Shown: positions 40,461 to 45,598 of the stretch, piece by piece | Position numbering within the stretch: position 1 is the stretch's first letter | Layout: every line of letters starts with the position of its first letter | Assembly: GCF_021391675.1 (NCBI RefSeq) | Contig: NZ_CP090095.1 | Coordinates: forward strand, 873,501-937,500 | DNA from: Neorhizobium galegae | Lineage (GTDB): Bacteria; Pseudomonadota; Alphaproteobacteria; Rhizobiales; Rhizobiaceae | Reading direction: 5' to 3' | Length of the DNA: 64,000 bases | Made by a program: the position numbers and the translations under genes | The notes under the pieces: generated by a model | Database searches by the model: none | The model's input: the letters and a program-made list of their open reading frames with translations, nothing else | Told to the model about the DNA's origin: nothing

Positions 40461-40919
40461 TTAGCGGCGGCTCAGCGGAAACCGCTCGGGGTCGTCCTGC
40501 CAAGGATCGAAGATTGCCGCGCCCGACGCGCGAGTGTCTTTCACGTTGCGGGTGGCGAGATAGAGATTATGCTCGATTGCCGTCGCGGCAAACAGCGTAT
40601 CGATCACCGGTGGCGCATGGCTGGTCGCCTGCTTCACCCTCCCGGATATAGCGCCCCACCGCCTGACGATCGCGTCGCTGACGGAAAGGGTCCGCCCGGC
40701 AAATCTGTCCTCGAGCGCATCACGGGCTGCGGCATAACGATAGCGATTTTCGTCATCCGCTGGCAGGTTCTCGATGCCCTTGTCGTATTCCGCCAGGGTC
40801 AGGATGCTGATGAAGAAACGGTCTTCATCCTGTCCGGCAGCCCACCGTTTGACGGAGGGTGCTCCGTTCGGATTGATCAGCGCGGCGACGACATTGGTAT
40901 CCAGCAGCCAGCCGATCAC
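40461..40919 (-). CDS. PIN domain (VapC-like) toxin
   Basis: A 152-residue PIN-domain ribonuclease of VapC type. The acidic residues of the active site are seen in WLLDTNVV near residue 4, ILTLAEYDKGI near residue 41 (the conserved Glu), and the late PPVIDTLFAATAIEHNLYLATRNVKD near residues 103-128 (the two Asp). Such toxins cut tRNA or rRNA when not bound by antitoxin. The start overlaps the stop of the antitoxin gene by four bases. The stop lies only 4 bp from the convergent ribF stop, so there is no terminator space between them. Confidence 0.87.
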   Translation of the reverse strand: MIGWLLDTNVVAALINPNGAPSVKRWAAGQDEDRFFISILTLAEYDKGIENLPADDENRYRYAAARDALEDRFAGRTLSVSDAIVRRWGAISGRVKQATSHAPPVIDTLFAATAIEHNLYLATRNVKDTRASGAAIFDPWQDDPERFPLSRR

Positions 40920-41188
40920 AGGTCGATATCCCGGCCGCGATCCGCTTCCCGCTCCAGCTCCAGCGTGTCCAGCCCCAGGCCTTCCATGAATTCCACGAAG
41001 GATTTCTTAGGTGCGGCCCTCGTCAGCCTCTCCAGCTCCTCCGTGCTGATCACGACGACGCTGTCGCGACCCCGCACGGTCACGCGCTGGGGGCCTTCGC
41101 TATGCGCGCGCCTCACCACTTCGCTGAAGCGTGCCTTGGCATCCTCCAGCTTCCAGCTATTGTCGTGAGCGGTGGGCTTGCCCGGCAT
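40916..41188 (-). CDS. Phd/YefM family antitoxin
   Basis: A 90-residue antitoxin partner of the PIN toxin. The N-terminal SWKLEDAKARFSEVVRRAHSEGPQRVTVRGRDSVVVIS is the Phd/YefM DNA-binding fold, and the C-terminal half (FVEFMEGLGLDTLELEREADRGRDIDL) is the acidic toxin-neutralising helix. A strong GGAGGTTTC ribosome site precedes the ATG. The promoter faces the ileS leader region; two GTCAG direct repeats (41203-41207 and 41211-41215) lie just upstream and may be part of its operator. Confidence 0.85.
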   Translation of the reverse strand: MPGKPTAHDNSWKLEDAKARFSEVVRRAHSEGPQRVTVRGRDSVVVISTEELERLTRAAPKKSFVEFMEGLGLDTLELEREADRGRDIDL

Positions 41189-41303
41189 GAAACCTCCGAC
41201 TGGTCAGCTAGTCAGATATAGTCTCCGCGAGTTTGAAAGTCTAGGATGGCATCTTGGTTTTGCCCCTTCCTTTCCGCCGCAAAAACCCTTAAGAACCGCC
41301 ACC

Positions 41304-41366
41304 ATGAAAAAATTTCGGCTGGCCCAGATCATTCGAATTATAGGCCCGGCCTTCCGCGCGCTGTAA
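41304..41366 (+). CDS. Putative ileS leader peptide (Ile-rich)
   Basis: A 20-codon frame, ATG to TAA, encoding [20 protein letters not shown]. Four of the six codons 9-14 region are isoleucine-related: ATC ATT, CGA, ATT ATA, and ATA is rare in this genome. The last Ile codon ends three bases before the 5' arm of a GC-rich hairpin with a T-run. A ribosome waiting for charged tRNA-Ile would cover that arm and prevent termination. The start codon lacks a strong Shine-Dalgarno sequence, the main weakness of the call. No protein function is expected. The frame lies 101 bp upstream of ileS and downstream of the divergent antitoxin promoter. Confidence 0.6.
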
Positions 41367-41391
41367 AAGCGGCCGGAGGGTCCGGGTTTTT
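41345..41391 (+). promoter_or_regulatory. Candidate attenuator terminator in the ileS leader
   Basis: CCCGG-CCTTCCG (41345-41356) pairs with CGGAGGG-T-CCGGG (41374-41386), a 12-bp stem with one wobble and one bulge, followed by five T (41387-41391). The 5' arm overlaps leader codons 14-18. An upstream string CAAAAACCC (41280-41288) is a perfect complement of GGGTTTTTG (41384-41392), so an alternative pairing could open the terminator. A second hairpin, GGCGCT-TCATG-AGCGCC, follows directly at 41392-41408. Confidence 0.6.
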
Positions 41392-41467
41392 GGCGCTTCA
41401 TGAGCGCCTTCCGCCAGCGAATTTTCATCGAGATGCGCCCCGTCGCGGCGCCAGGACGATTGCTCCC

Positions 41468-44371
41468 ATGACCGATACCGCCGAAAAGCTCGACTATTCG
41501 AAAACCCTCTATCTGCCCGAAACCGATTTCCCGATGCGCGCCGGCCTGCCGCAGAAGGAGCCGGAACTGGTTGCCCGCTGGCAGCAGATGGACCTCTACA
41601 AGCAGCTCCGCGCCTCCGCCACGGGCCGCGAAAAATTCGTGCTGCATGACGGCCCGCCCTATGCCAACGGCAATATCCATATCGGCCATGCGCTGAACAA
41701 GATCCTGAAGGACGTCATCACCCGCTCGTTCCAGATGCGCGGTTATGACTCGAACTATGTTCCGGGCTGGGATTGCCACGGCCTGCCGATCGAATGGAAG
41801 ATCGAGGAAGCCTATCGCGCCAAGGGCAAGAACAAGGACGAGGTTCCGATCAACGAATTCCGCCAGGAATGCCGGGAATTCGCGGCCGGCTGGATCAAGA
41901 TCCAGGCTGAGGAATTCAAGCGCCTCGGCATCGTCGGCGATTTCGAAAACCCGTACCTGACGATGAATTTTCACGCCGAGAGCCGCATCGCCGGCGAACT
42001 GCTGAAGATCGCCCAGAGCGGCCAGCTCTATCGCGGCTCGAAGCCGATCATGTGGTCGGTCGTCGAGCGTACCGCGCTGGCCGAGGCCGAGGTGGAGTAC
42101 CACGACTATGAGAGCGACACGATCTGGGTGAAGTTCCCGGTCAACAACGCCGTTCGTGATGGTGCTGTGATGGGTGACCTCGTGGGCGCCTTCGTCGTCA
42201 TCTGGACCACTACCCCTTGGACGATCCCCGGCAACCGAGCGATCTCCTATTCTTCAAAGGTCAACTACAGCCTCTACGAGATCACCGAAGCAGAGAATGA
42301 TTTTGGCCCTCGTCCGGGTGAGAAGCTTATATTTGCGGATAGACTGGCTGCAGACGCTTTCGCAAAGGCCAAGCTTCAATATCGTGTTGTTCGTTCTGTC
42401 TCTGCCCTGGAACTGGCCGGTTTGGGTGTGCGGCATCCTTTGGAAGGATTGGGTGGTGGATATCACTTTGCCGTTCCCATGCTGGACGGGGACCACGTTA
42501 CAGATACGGACGGAACAGGTTTTGTTCATACGGCTCCCGGGCACGGACGCGAAGATTTTGACATTTGGATGGAGCAAGCCCGCCATAAAGGCGTAGATAC
42601 GAAGATCCCCTTCACGGTCGATGACGGCGGTTTCTACACGGCCGACGCTCCCGGTTTCGAGGGTGCCCGCGTCATGGACGACAACGGCAAGAAGGGCGAT
42701 GCCAACGATCGCGTCATCAAGGCGCTGATCGAGCGCAACGCGCTGTTTGCCCGCGGCCGGATGAAGCATCAGTATCCGCATTCGTGGCGGTCGAAGAAGC
42801 CGATCATCTTCCGCAACACGCCGCAGTGGTTCGTCTACATGGACAAGGACCTTGCCGACGGCACCACGCTTCGCTCGCGTGCCCTCAAGGCGATCGACGA
42901 CACCCGTTTCGTGCCATCAGCCGGCCAGAACCGCCTGCGTGCGATGATCGAACAGCGCCCGGACTGGGTGCTTTCCCGTCAGCGCGCCTGGGGCGTCCCG
43001 ATCTGCGTCTTCGTCGACGAGCAGGGCGAAATCCTTCAGGACGAAGCTGTCAACCAGCGCATCCTCGAAGCCTTCGATCTCGAAGGTGCCGACGCCTGGT
43101 TCGCCGAAGGAGCGCGTGAGCGTTTCCTGGGGTCACGCGCCAACGAAGGCTGGACGCAGGTGATGGATATCCTCGATGTCTGGTTCGATAGCGGTTCCAC
43201 CCACACTTTCACGCTCGAAGACCGCCCGGACCTGAAATGGCCGGCCGACGTCTATCTCGAAGGCTCCGACCAGCATCGCGGCTGGTTCCATTCCTCGCTG
43301 CTGGAATCCGCCGCCACCCGCGGCCGGGCGCCCTATGACACGGTCGTCACCCATGGCTTCACCATGGATGAGAAAGGCCAGAAGATGTCGAAGTCGCTCG
43401 GCAATGTCGTGGCCCCGCAGGACGTCATGAAGGATGCCGGAGCCGATATCCTGCGCCTCTGGGTGATGACGACCGACTATTGGGAAGACCAGCGCCTCGG
43501 CAAGACCATCATCCAGACCAATGTCGATGCGTATCGCAAGCTGCGCAACACGATCCGCTGGATGCTCGGCACGCTCGCCCATGACGAGGGCGAGGAGATC
43601 GCCTATGCCGACCTGCCGGAACTCGAAAAGCTGATGCTGCATCGCCTCGCCGAGCTCGATAAGCTCGTGCGCGAAGGTTATGACGCCTTCGAATTCAAGA
43701 AGATCGCCCGGGCGCTGATCGATTTTTCCAATATCGAGCTGTCGGCCTTCTACTTCGATATCCGCAAGGATGTGCTTTATTGCGACGCGCCGTCGTCGCT
43801 GCGCCGTCGCGCGGCTCTTGCCGTCATCCGCAAGATCTTCGACTGCACGGTGACCTGGCTTGCGCCCATGCTGCCGTTCACCACCGAGGAATCGTGGCTG
43901 TCGCGCAACCCGAACGCCGTCTCGATCCATCTCGAGCAGTTCCCGACGGTTCCGACCGAGTGGAAGAACGAAGCGGTCGCCGAAAAATGGGCGCGGATCC
44001 GCAAGGTGCGCTCGGTTGTCACAGGCGCACTCGAAATCGAACGCAAGGACAAGCGGATCGGCTCTTCGCTGGAGGCCGCACCGGTCGTCTATGTCAACGA
44101 TCCGGAGCTGATGAAGGCGCTGGAAGGCCAGGATTTCGAAGAGACCTGCATCACCTCGGGCATCGCGATCGTTGCGGGCGAGGGGCCGGAGAGCGCCTTC
44201 CGTCTGCCGGAAGTGCAGGCCGTCGCGGTCGACCCGAAGCTCGCCGAAGGCACCAAATGCGCCCGCTCATGGCGGGTGACGACCGATGTCGGCTCCGATC
44301 CTGCCTATCCGGATGTGTCGGCGCGCGACGCTGCCGCACTGCGCGAGTTGGCCACCCTCGGCCGGCTTTGA
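41468..44371 (+). CDS. ileS: Isoleucyl-tRNA synthetase
   Basis: IleS charges tRNA-Ile and edits misactivated valine. The 967-residue class I enzyme has the HIGH motif in [13 protein letters not shown] near residue 74, the CP1 editing domain ([13 protein letters not shown], then [17 protein letters not shown] near residue 352) and the KMSKS loop [15 protein letters not shown] near residue 637. The C-terminal zinc finger of E. coli is reduced to [13 protein letters not shown], normal for alphaproteobacteria. A block of about 300 bp (42290-42600) in the editing domain has lower GC and different codons from the rest of the gene. The frame opens at 41246, but the ATG at 41468 matches the family start. 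The gene is preceded by a candidate attenuator. Confidence 0.97.
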
Positions 44372-45142: not shown

Positions 45143-45598
45143 TTAGCTCTCTCTTTTCGATCTGAAGAAGCCGGTGAGCAGGATCGCGGCCTCGCTTTCG
45201 CCGAGGCCGGAATAGACTTCCGGCGCATGATGGCAGGTCGGCTGGGCAAAGAAGCGCACACCGTTGTCCACCGCTCCGCCCTTCGGGTCCTCCGCGCCGT
45301 AATAGAGCCGCCGGATGCGCGCAAACGAGATCGCCGCCGCGCACATGGTGCAGGGTTCGAGCGTCACGTAAAGGTCGGCACCTGACAGCCGCTCCTGTCC
45401 AAGGGCGGCCGCGGCATCCCGGATGACGGCGATTTCGGCATGGGCGGTAACGTCGTTTTCGGCGCGGGTCCGGTTTCCGGAGCGGGCGACGATAATGCCG
45501 TCGACGACCAGAACGGCGCCGATCGGAACCTCGCCGCGGGCGGCCGCGTCTTTGGCTTCCGCAAGGGCAGCATTCATGAACCCATCGGTATTAGGCAT
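45143..45598 (-). CDS. tadA: tRNA-specific adenosine deaminase TadA-like
   Basis: TadA converts adenosine-34 to inosine in the anticodon of tRNA-Arg(ACG), and is essential in most bacteria. The 151-residue cytidine-deaminase fold has the zinc site HAE in DVTAHAEIAVIRDAA near residue 53, with the catalytic Glu, and the PCTMCAAAI motif near residue 83 supplying two Cys ligands. The GEVPIGAVLV start and RLYYGAEDPKGGA segment are typical. It is divergent from the rluB-type gene with about 150 bp between, and convergent with the lipoprotein gene. Confidence 0.93.
   Translation of the reverse strand: MPNTDGFMNAALAEAKDAAARGEVPIGAVLVVDGIIVARSGNRTRAENDVTAHAEIAVIRDAAAALGQERLSGADLYVTLEPCTMCAAAISFARIRRLYYGAEDPKGGAVDNGVRFFAQPTCHHAPEVYSGLGESEAAILLTGFFRSKRES

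Follow-up and report, generated by a model that had tools for sequence, protein, structure and literature searches.

In the window, by which we mean the whole stretch of 64,000 nucleotides of DNA that was analysed, ileS is probably controlled by a leader-peptide attenuator that senses charged tRNA-Ile. A translated leader followed by a hairpin before ileS is well supported by comparison with related sequences, which provides direct support for a conserved leader frame, an invariant codon, covarying pairs in the hairpin and promoter-like boxes (Table 1).

Table 1. Features of the proposed ileS attenuator, with positions in the window.
Feature	Position	Strand	Remarks
Candidate −35 element	41267..41272	+	TTCCTT; 17 nt 5′ of the −10 element
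Candidate −10 element	41290..41295	+	TAAGAA; 8 bases before the ATG; inferred transcription start about 41302–41304
Leader frame	41304..41366	+	20 codons; ATG 41304, TAA 41364–41366; probably leaderless
Candidate stall site	41334..41340	+	CGAATTA (Arg CGA, Ile ATT, then A); conserved in the codon-free search
Hairpin	41345..41386	+	CCCGG-CCTTCC / GGAGGG-T-CCGGG; leader stop codon on the loop side; predicted fold, inner pairs covary
T-tract	41387..41391	+	TTTTT; with the hairpin, a candidate intrinsic terminator; TTT in most genus copies
Second small hairpin	41392..41408	+	GGCGCTTCATGAGCGCC; predicted fold; GGCG...CGCC counterpart in the Rhodobacteraceae alignment
ileS, proposed controlled gene	41468..44371	+	ATG 41468; TIGR00392, 813 bits against a cut-off of 621

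Leader frame, promoter and distribution

The 20-codon frame proposed in a sequence-only reading of this DNA was found as described, before ileS and on the same strand, with ATC ATT CGA ATT ATA as codons 9–13. Among the copies collected, 250 ATGs within 60 bases 5′ of the motif lie in the motif frame, compared with 16 and 18 in the other two frames. When only ATGs anchored by a −10-like box were considered in 168 distinct upstream sequences, all 98 shared the motif frame, at distances of 21 to 63 bases, which supports the earlier proposal of a translated leader before the hairpin. The leader stop codon lies 5′ of the 3′ arm of the hairpin in 161 of 167 copies, and leaders from the genus have R-I-I-G-P-A-F or close variants at their C terminus. 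An attenuator is expected to have a short upstream frame in the same transcript; such a frame is present here, and its translation and co-transcription with ileS are predicted.

A TANNAN box ends 4–10 nt 5′ of the leader ATG at 95 of 168 loci, compared with 11 of 168 shuffled sequences, and the spacing is 6–8 in 89 of the 95. Upstream of it, TTCC, TTGC, TTGA or TTTC is found 16–18 nt from the −10 box at 42 of 93 loci (6 of 93 shuffled), a count to which relatedness contributes, as 23 of the 42 are TTCCTT. A scan with a strict E. coli-type consensus returned no promoter at this site. The mapped ileS promoter of Methylorubrum extorquens DM4 (TTCCCC-17-TAGAAG, 7 nt to the start) lies 150 nt before ileS (PMC9320726), and in Methylobacterium haplocladii (L142) TAGAAG stands six bases before the leader ATG. 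A search for the M. extorquens promoter sequence found it in 0 of 146 genomes of one genus (4–11 Mb) and 0 of 397 others. Judging by these boxes, transcription most probably begins at the leader AUG or no more than a few bases away from it. The lack of a strong ribosome site before the leader ATG, which had been named as a weakness of the attenuator proposal, is accounted for because the transcript is probably leaderless. Between ribF and ileS lies a toxin–antitoxin pair of the PIN-domain (VapC-like) and Phd/YefM types (40464–41188, minus strand); since this pair is on the opposite strand, a separate promoter for ileS is very likely required here.

We searched 60 relatives for IleS and read the sequences upstream. 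Within the genus, all 36 genomes, the own genome among them, had the motif and an in-frame leader before ileS, so that neither Ile codon nor hairpin was lost in close relatives, a check that the sequence-only reading had proposed. In other families of the order, the motif preceded ileS in 7 of the 22 genomes read (24 were searched; G037 and G050 were left out). A covariance model built from 30 copies had the ileS leader as its sole good match in the own genome (E 3e-16; next match, 0.79), and across the class, with strict filters and E up to 0.01, it matched 45 of 385 genomes. In a class sample of 80 ileS upstream sequences the motif was present in 33, or 25 of 72 when counted once per family, and absent at the score used in 47; the reverse strand gave 0 of 80. 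This sample was drawn from the best-scoring matches listed for the 334 of 385 genomes with an IleS match, and in it 72 families are each represented by the genome listed first, with 8 second picks added, some of them already known to carry the motif (one region was extended so as to take it in). As all 8 second picks have the motif, 25 of 72 is the fairer count, with the proviso that one of the 25 (L281) is ribF coding sequence. The element, as recognized by its sequence, is thus common in the class and not universal.

A pattern scan of named genomes returned at least 119 stretches, and among the 119 listed, 93 are followed by ileS, on the same strand and no more than 800 bases away, 5 are cut by a record edge, 5 lie beside an ACT-like gene, 1 precedes another gene (L180) and 15 are non-alphaproteobacterial, 12 of which were read and taken for chance. 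The ileS-linked matches listed come from Rhizobiales, Rhodobacterales, Caulobacterales, Hyphomonas, Rhodospirillales and others. Because the pattern fixes CGAATTA and the stem, these loci are uninformative on the constancy of CGA. Four duplicates (L001, L028, L029 and L030) were left out and are kept as L002, L060, L061 and L062; L151 is absent from the tables, and its leader is visible in the sequence. In planctomycete MAGs, six loci (L133, L136, L149, L190, L200 and L216) contain a repeated palindrome with CGAATTAAAAGCCCGGCATT and its complement that has a terminator-like look; L199, L201 and L205, from one of those MAGs, are outside the loci read for the palindrome.

Certain lineages have the motif before a gene encoding a small protein of the ACT fold, similar to acetolactate synthase regulatory subunits. 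The structure predicted for this protein (pLDDT 85) has IlvN as the best structural match, with nearly equal scores for other ACT enzymes and NikR. Searched as single proteins, these sequences matched nothing in Pfam at E 0.001 or in NCBIfam at 0.1; among homologues at E up to 1, 4 of 15 touch ACT_AHAS_ss (best 0.012), and the one PDB sequence-profile match was an acetolactate synthase small subunit at E 1. The predicted structure settles the fold of this protein, not its function. Three genomes of one genus carry two tandem motif copies approximately 180–200 bases apart (L086, L087 and L088, about 1309–1560), with a small ACT-like frame 3′ of the tandem motifs in L086. At the Pseudovibrio exalbescens locus L180, from position 297 onwards, an intact-looking leader and motif (MRTNFQISGARRLLRIISPA) stand before a kinase-like gene, not ileS.

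A single ATT codon as the candidate sensor

The constancy of the codons was assessed in the 80 class upstream sequences with a codon-free search that accepts any CCCGG hairpin enclosing a stop codon and preceded by an ATG in frame, neither codon being required. Twenty-one upstream sequences qualified, and none did on the reverse strand. In all 21, ATT followed by A lies eight bases 5′ of the stem, a distance that the search itself imposes; CGA precedes ATT in 19, with GGG and TCG in the other two. An attenuator is also expected to have a codon for the sensed amino acid at the control position, and here ATT occupies that position in 21 of 21 sequences without having been asked for. Both codons are uncommon in the window, where CGA makes up 3.3% of Arg codons and ATT 11.9% of Ile codons and none of 74 CGN-Ile pairs is CGA-ATT, as judged from 42 long frames chosen by length and GC3 rather than annotated genes.

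The sequence-only reading had taken a run of Ile codons as the sensor. What stands is that an Ile codon occupies a constant position 5′ of the hairpin; the invariant part is a single ATT, and 25 of 168 leaders have only one Ile codon (range, 1 to 7). The table of 168 leaders includes three variants chosen by inspection (L237, L243 and L291), all with ATTA, a bias that the codon-free search lacks. In one genus of large genomes, the stem with ATTA occurs in 56 of 60 genomes, ATTA being part of the query, and the codon before ATT in 30 copies is GGG (17), AGC (6), CGG (3), GGC (2), ACC (1) or CGC (1). A generalized motif, CGA-NNN-A plus hairpin, occurs at four places in the own genome, one of which is the ileS leader. 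Across these comparisons, the conserved candidate sensor is one ATT, usually after a rare CGA, eight bases 5′ of the stem, and not an Ile run.

We take this to reflect selection for a decoding site that is slow, depends on Ile and keeps a constant distance to the hairpin. Such a reading fits codon measurements in Salmonella his-leader assays, in which CGA stalls strongly and AUA moderately and NNC codons are mostly faster than NNU codons (PMC4046918); AUU itself is absent from those statements. The preceding CGA may sensitize the ATT that follows. The inosine that reads CGA codons is made by TadA, the tRNA adenosine-34 deaminase. Shortly 3′ of ileS and convergent with it lies a tadA-like gene (45146–45598, minus strand), which scores 128.5 with the NCBIfam TadA model against a cut-off of 150.

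Hairpin, alternative folds and T-tract

In the predicted stem, 41345–41355 pairs with 41375–41386, with a bulged T at 41381. Taken on its own, the window sequence is only mildly unusual: folding of 41270–41420 gave a z score of −1.91 (7 of 200 shuffles were as good), and a terminator scan found one site here compared with a mean of 0.6 in shuffles. It is conservation, rather than the single-sequence fold, that makes the element more than chance. CCCGG finds a downstream partner in 167 of 168 copies, the exception being L245, which has no 5-bp partner; with shuffled downstream sequence, 96 of 168 are without any partner. At the second inner position, 149 of 167 copies have a standard pair, with CG, GC, TG, TA and GT all in use; the fraction under random re-pairing is 0.52 (maximum 0.61 in 500). 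Covarying pairs in relatives, one of the checks suggested earlier, were thus found at this position, with the caution that pattern-selected copies contain CCGGG by design and that the partner was picked for the longest helix. The first inner pair (163 of 167, against 0.94 on re-pairing) carries little information.

A consensus fold of 41 sequences returned the hairpin only, with no conserved antiterminator, and folding 11 loci with the bases of the stalled ribosome masked revealed no shared alternative structure. If the 5′ arm is covered by the ribosome itself, a competing antiterminator would be dispensable. The sequence-only reading had proposed alternative pairings through CAAAAACCC (41280–41288) and GGCTGG (41317–41322). 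The letters are present as described, and this part of the proposal is not supported: the pairings are absent from the 41-sequence consensus fold, and CAAAAACCC would not be transcribed because it lies inside the inferred promoter spacer. At Rhodobacteraceae loci such as L147, L184 and L207, a conserved block, GACAAGGCG...CGCGCCGCCC, lies directly 3′ of the first hairpin and can form a second small hairpin.

The hairpin with five T put forward earlier as a terminator is present in the window, and a T-tract follows the hairpin in most of the genus: 29 of 36 copies have TTT no more than 8 nt after the stem, and 27 of 36 have TTTT directly after it. The arrangement is not general. TTT is found within the same distance in 2 of 33 copies of the Rhodobacteraceae group (our own grouping by name and sequence), in 4 of 33 class-sample copies (31 with CCCGG paired in the fold) and in 17 of 66 other copies (62 with CCCGG paired). 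An intrinsic-terminator output is therefore credible in this genus and not general to the class; a T-tract is the norm in this genus alone, so other lineages may use a different output step.

Proposed mechanism and comparison with known systems

From this arrangement we infer ribosome stalling, termination and a response to isoleucine. Transcription would start at about the leader AUG, with a ribosome trailing the polymerase. A shortage of Ile-tRNA would make this ribosome stall with ATT (41337) in its A site, aided by the slow preceding CGA, and the ribosome's leading edge would cover CCCGG (41345–41349), blocking the closing pairs of the hairpin. As the hairpin and T-tract of this genus would act as an intrinsic terminator, the stall would let transcription proceed into ileS. 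If Ile-tRNA is ample, the ribosome would reach the stop codon in the loop and leave, the hairpin would form and transcription would end near 41391. With the stop codon inside the hairpin, a terminating ribosome would also cover the hairpin, which counts against the mechanism, as do the modest single-sequence fold, the absence of a shared antiterminator from the 41-sequence consensus and the 11 masked loci, and the 47 of 80 class upstream sequences lacking the motif at the score used. Termination cannot be the general output, given that most copies from other genera and families have no T-tract.

The same stall at the Ile codon could instead act on something other than intrinsic termination, for example by keeping Rho out or by changing RNA decay or downstream folding, with the T-tract of this genus as a local addition. 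The scarcity of U-tracts in the Rhodobacteraceae group and the class sample (2 of 33 and 4 of 33), where codon, hairpin and stop position are nevertheless kept, argues for such an output, as does the second downstream hairpin kept in Rhodobacteraceae; against it, the genus has the arrangement of an intrinsic terminator, with TTT after the stem in 29 of 36 copies and TTTT in 27. For the class at large, we consider this quite possible but short of probable, and it is compatible with the attenuator explanation for this genus. It is unlikely that codons matter little and that an R-I-x-x-P-A peptide arrests the ribosome as it is made. Arg, Ile and Pro are near-constant at their places, as peptide arrest would predict; however, selection on the peptide leaves the use of one codon per residue (CGA, ATT) unexplained, the Pro codon CCG belongs to the stem, and Arg is replaced in 26 of 30 copies in the genus of large genomes (GGG 17, AGC 6, GGC 2, ACC 1; CGA 0 of 30).

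Constant wobble positions would also be expected if CGAAUUA and the stem were a direct RNA signal, recognized by a protein or cleaved by RNase E, whose consensus RN/WUU is fitted by GAAUU. Such a signal does not account for the leader frame being kept, and the variants GGG, GCC and TCG, in a listing built around ATTA, all keep ATTA while two of them break the RNase E consensus; we regard this explanation, too, as improbable. The modest folding of the single sequence is what an ordinary 5′ untranslated region would give, with a chance leader and the terminator of an upstream transcript. This is contradicted by the class distribution, frame conservation, covariation and the codon-free search, and the nearest upstream genes in the window are on the opposite strand, making it scarcely credible. 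A leader-peptide attenuator remains the preferred reading for this genus. More tentatively, and with more doubt than conviction, we propose a class-wide sensor of Ile-tRNA in which a single wobble-read ATT, hypersensitized by a slow CGA and at a fixed distance from a hairpin, would gate ileS and, in some lineages, an acetolactate-synthase-type regulator, mostly without an intrinsic terminator and by an undescribed readout.

If true, the element would represent conserved feedback on an essential synthetase in Alphaproteobacteria and would suggest that codon choice, rather than codon number, tunes the attenuator. It also raises the question of the hairpin's role in copies that lack a U-tract. 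Annotation of the element is straightforward with the covariance model and the pattern. In Rfam 15, no family matched the element or 8 related loci, the only match in the window being a tRNA at 2315–2385, and a T-box riboswitch was rejected as its identity, with no family at E up to 5 in 41200–41500. Judged by its sequence, the element appears to work like a leader-peptide attenuator, a kind published for cysS; we found no description of it as a regulator in the CC-licensed full texts consulted.

Among known systems, the pheST attenuator uses Phe codons and classical alternative hairpins, and T-boxes bind tRNA directly and have no leader peptide. Attenuation of pheST in enterobacteria, which is mentioned in PMC1262725, is ribosome-mediated, as proposed here, and acts on a synthetase gene, and the ileS T-boxes of Actinobacteria (PMC1262725) place ileS under RNA control by tRNA-Ile status, the kind of control proposed here. 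In Caulobacter crescentus, an ileS leader CDS (CCNA_03934) is named as an assay negative control in a paper on CDS mapping by ribosome profiling (PMC4117421); the Caulobacter MAG loci L215 and L222 carry the ileS motif, and the comparison with CCNA_03934 is by name, not sequence. The trpL attenuator of Sinorhizobium meliloti has a leaderless frame at the transcript AUG, as proposed here for the ileS leader, and differs in sensing Trp, in controlling a biosynthetic gene and in having products that act in trans (PMC10117765). The uORFC-8-2 cysS leader of Rhodobacterales is likewise a candidate attenuator of an aminoacyl-tRNA synthetase in Alphaproteobacteria, described with two tandem Cys codons, two stems and a U run in all cases, within one order (PMC8632094). 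By contrast, the ileS element has one ATT, usually after CGA, and one core hairpin, spans several orders and mostly lacks the U run outside the genus.
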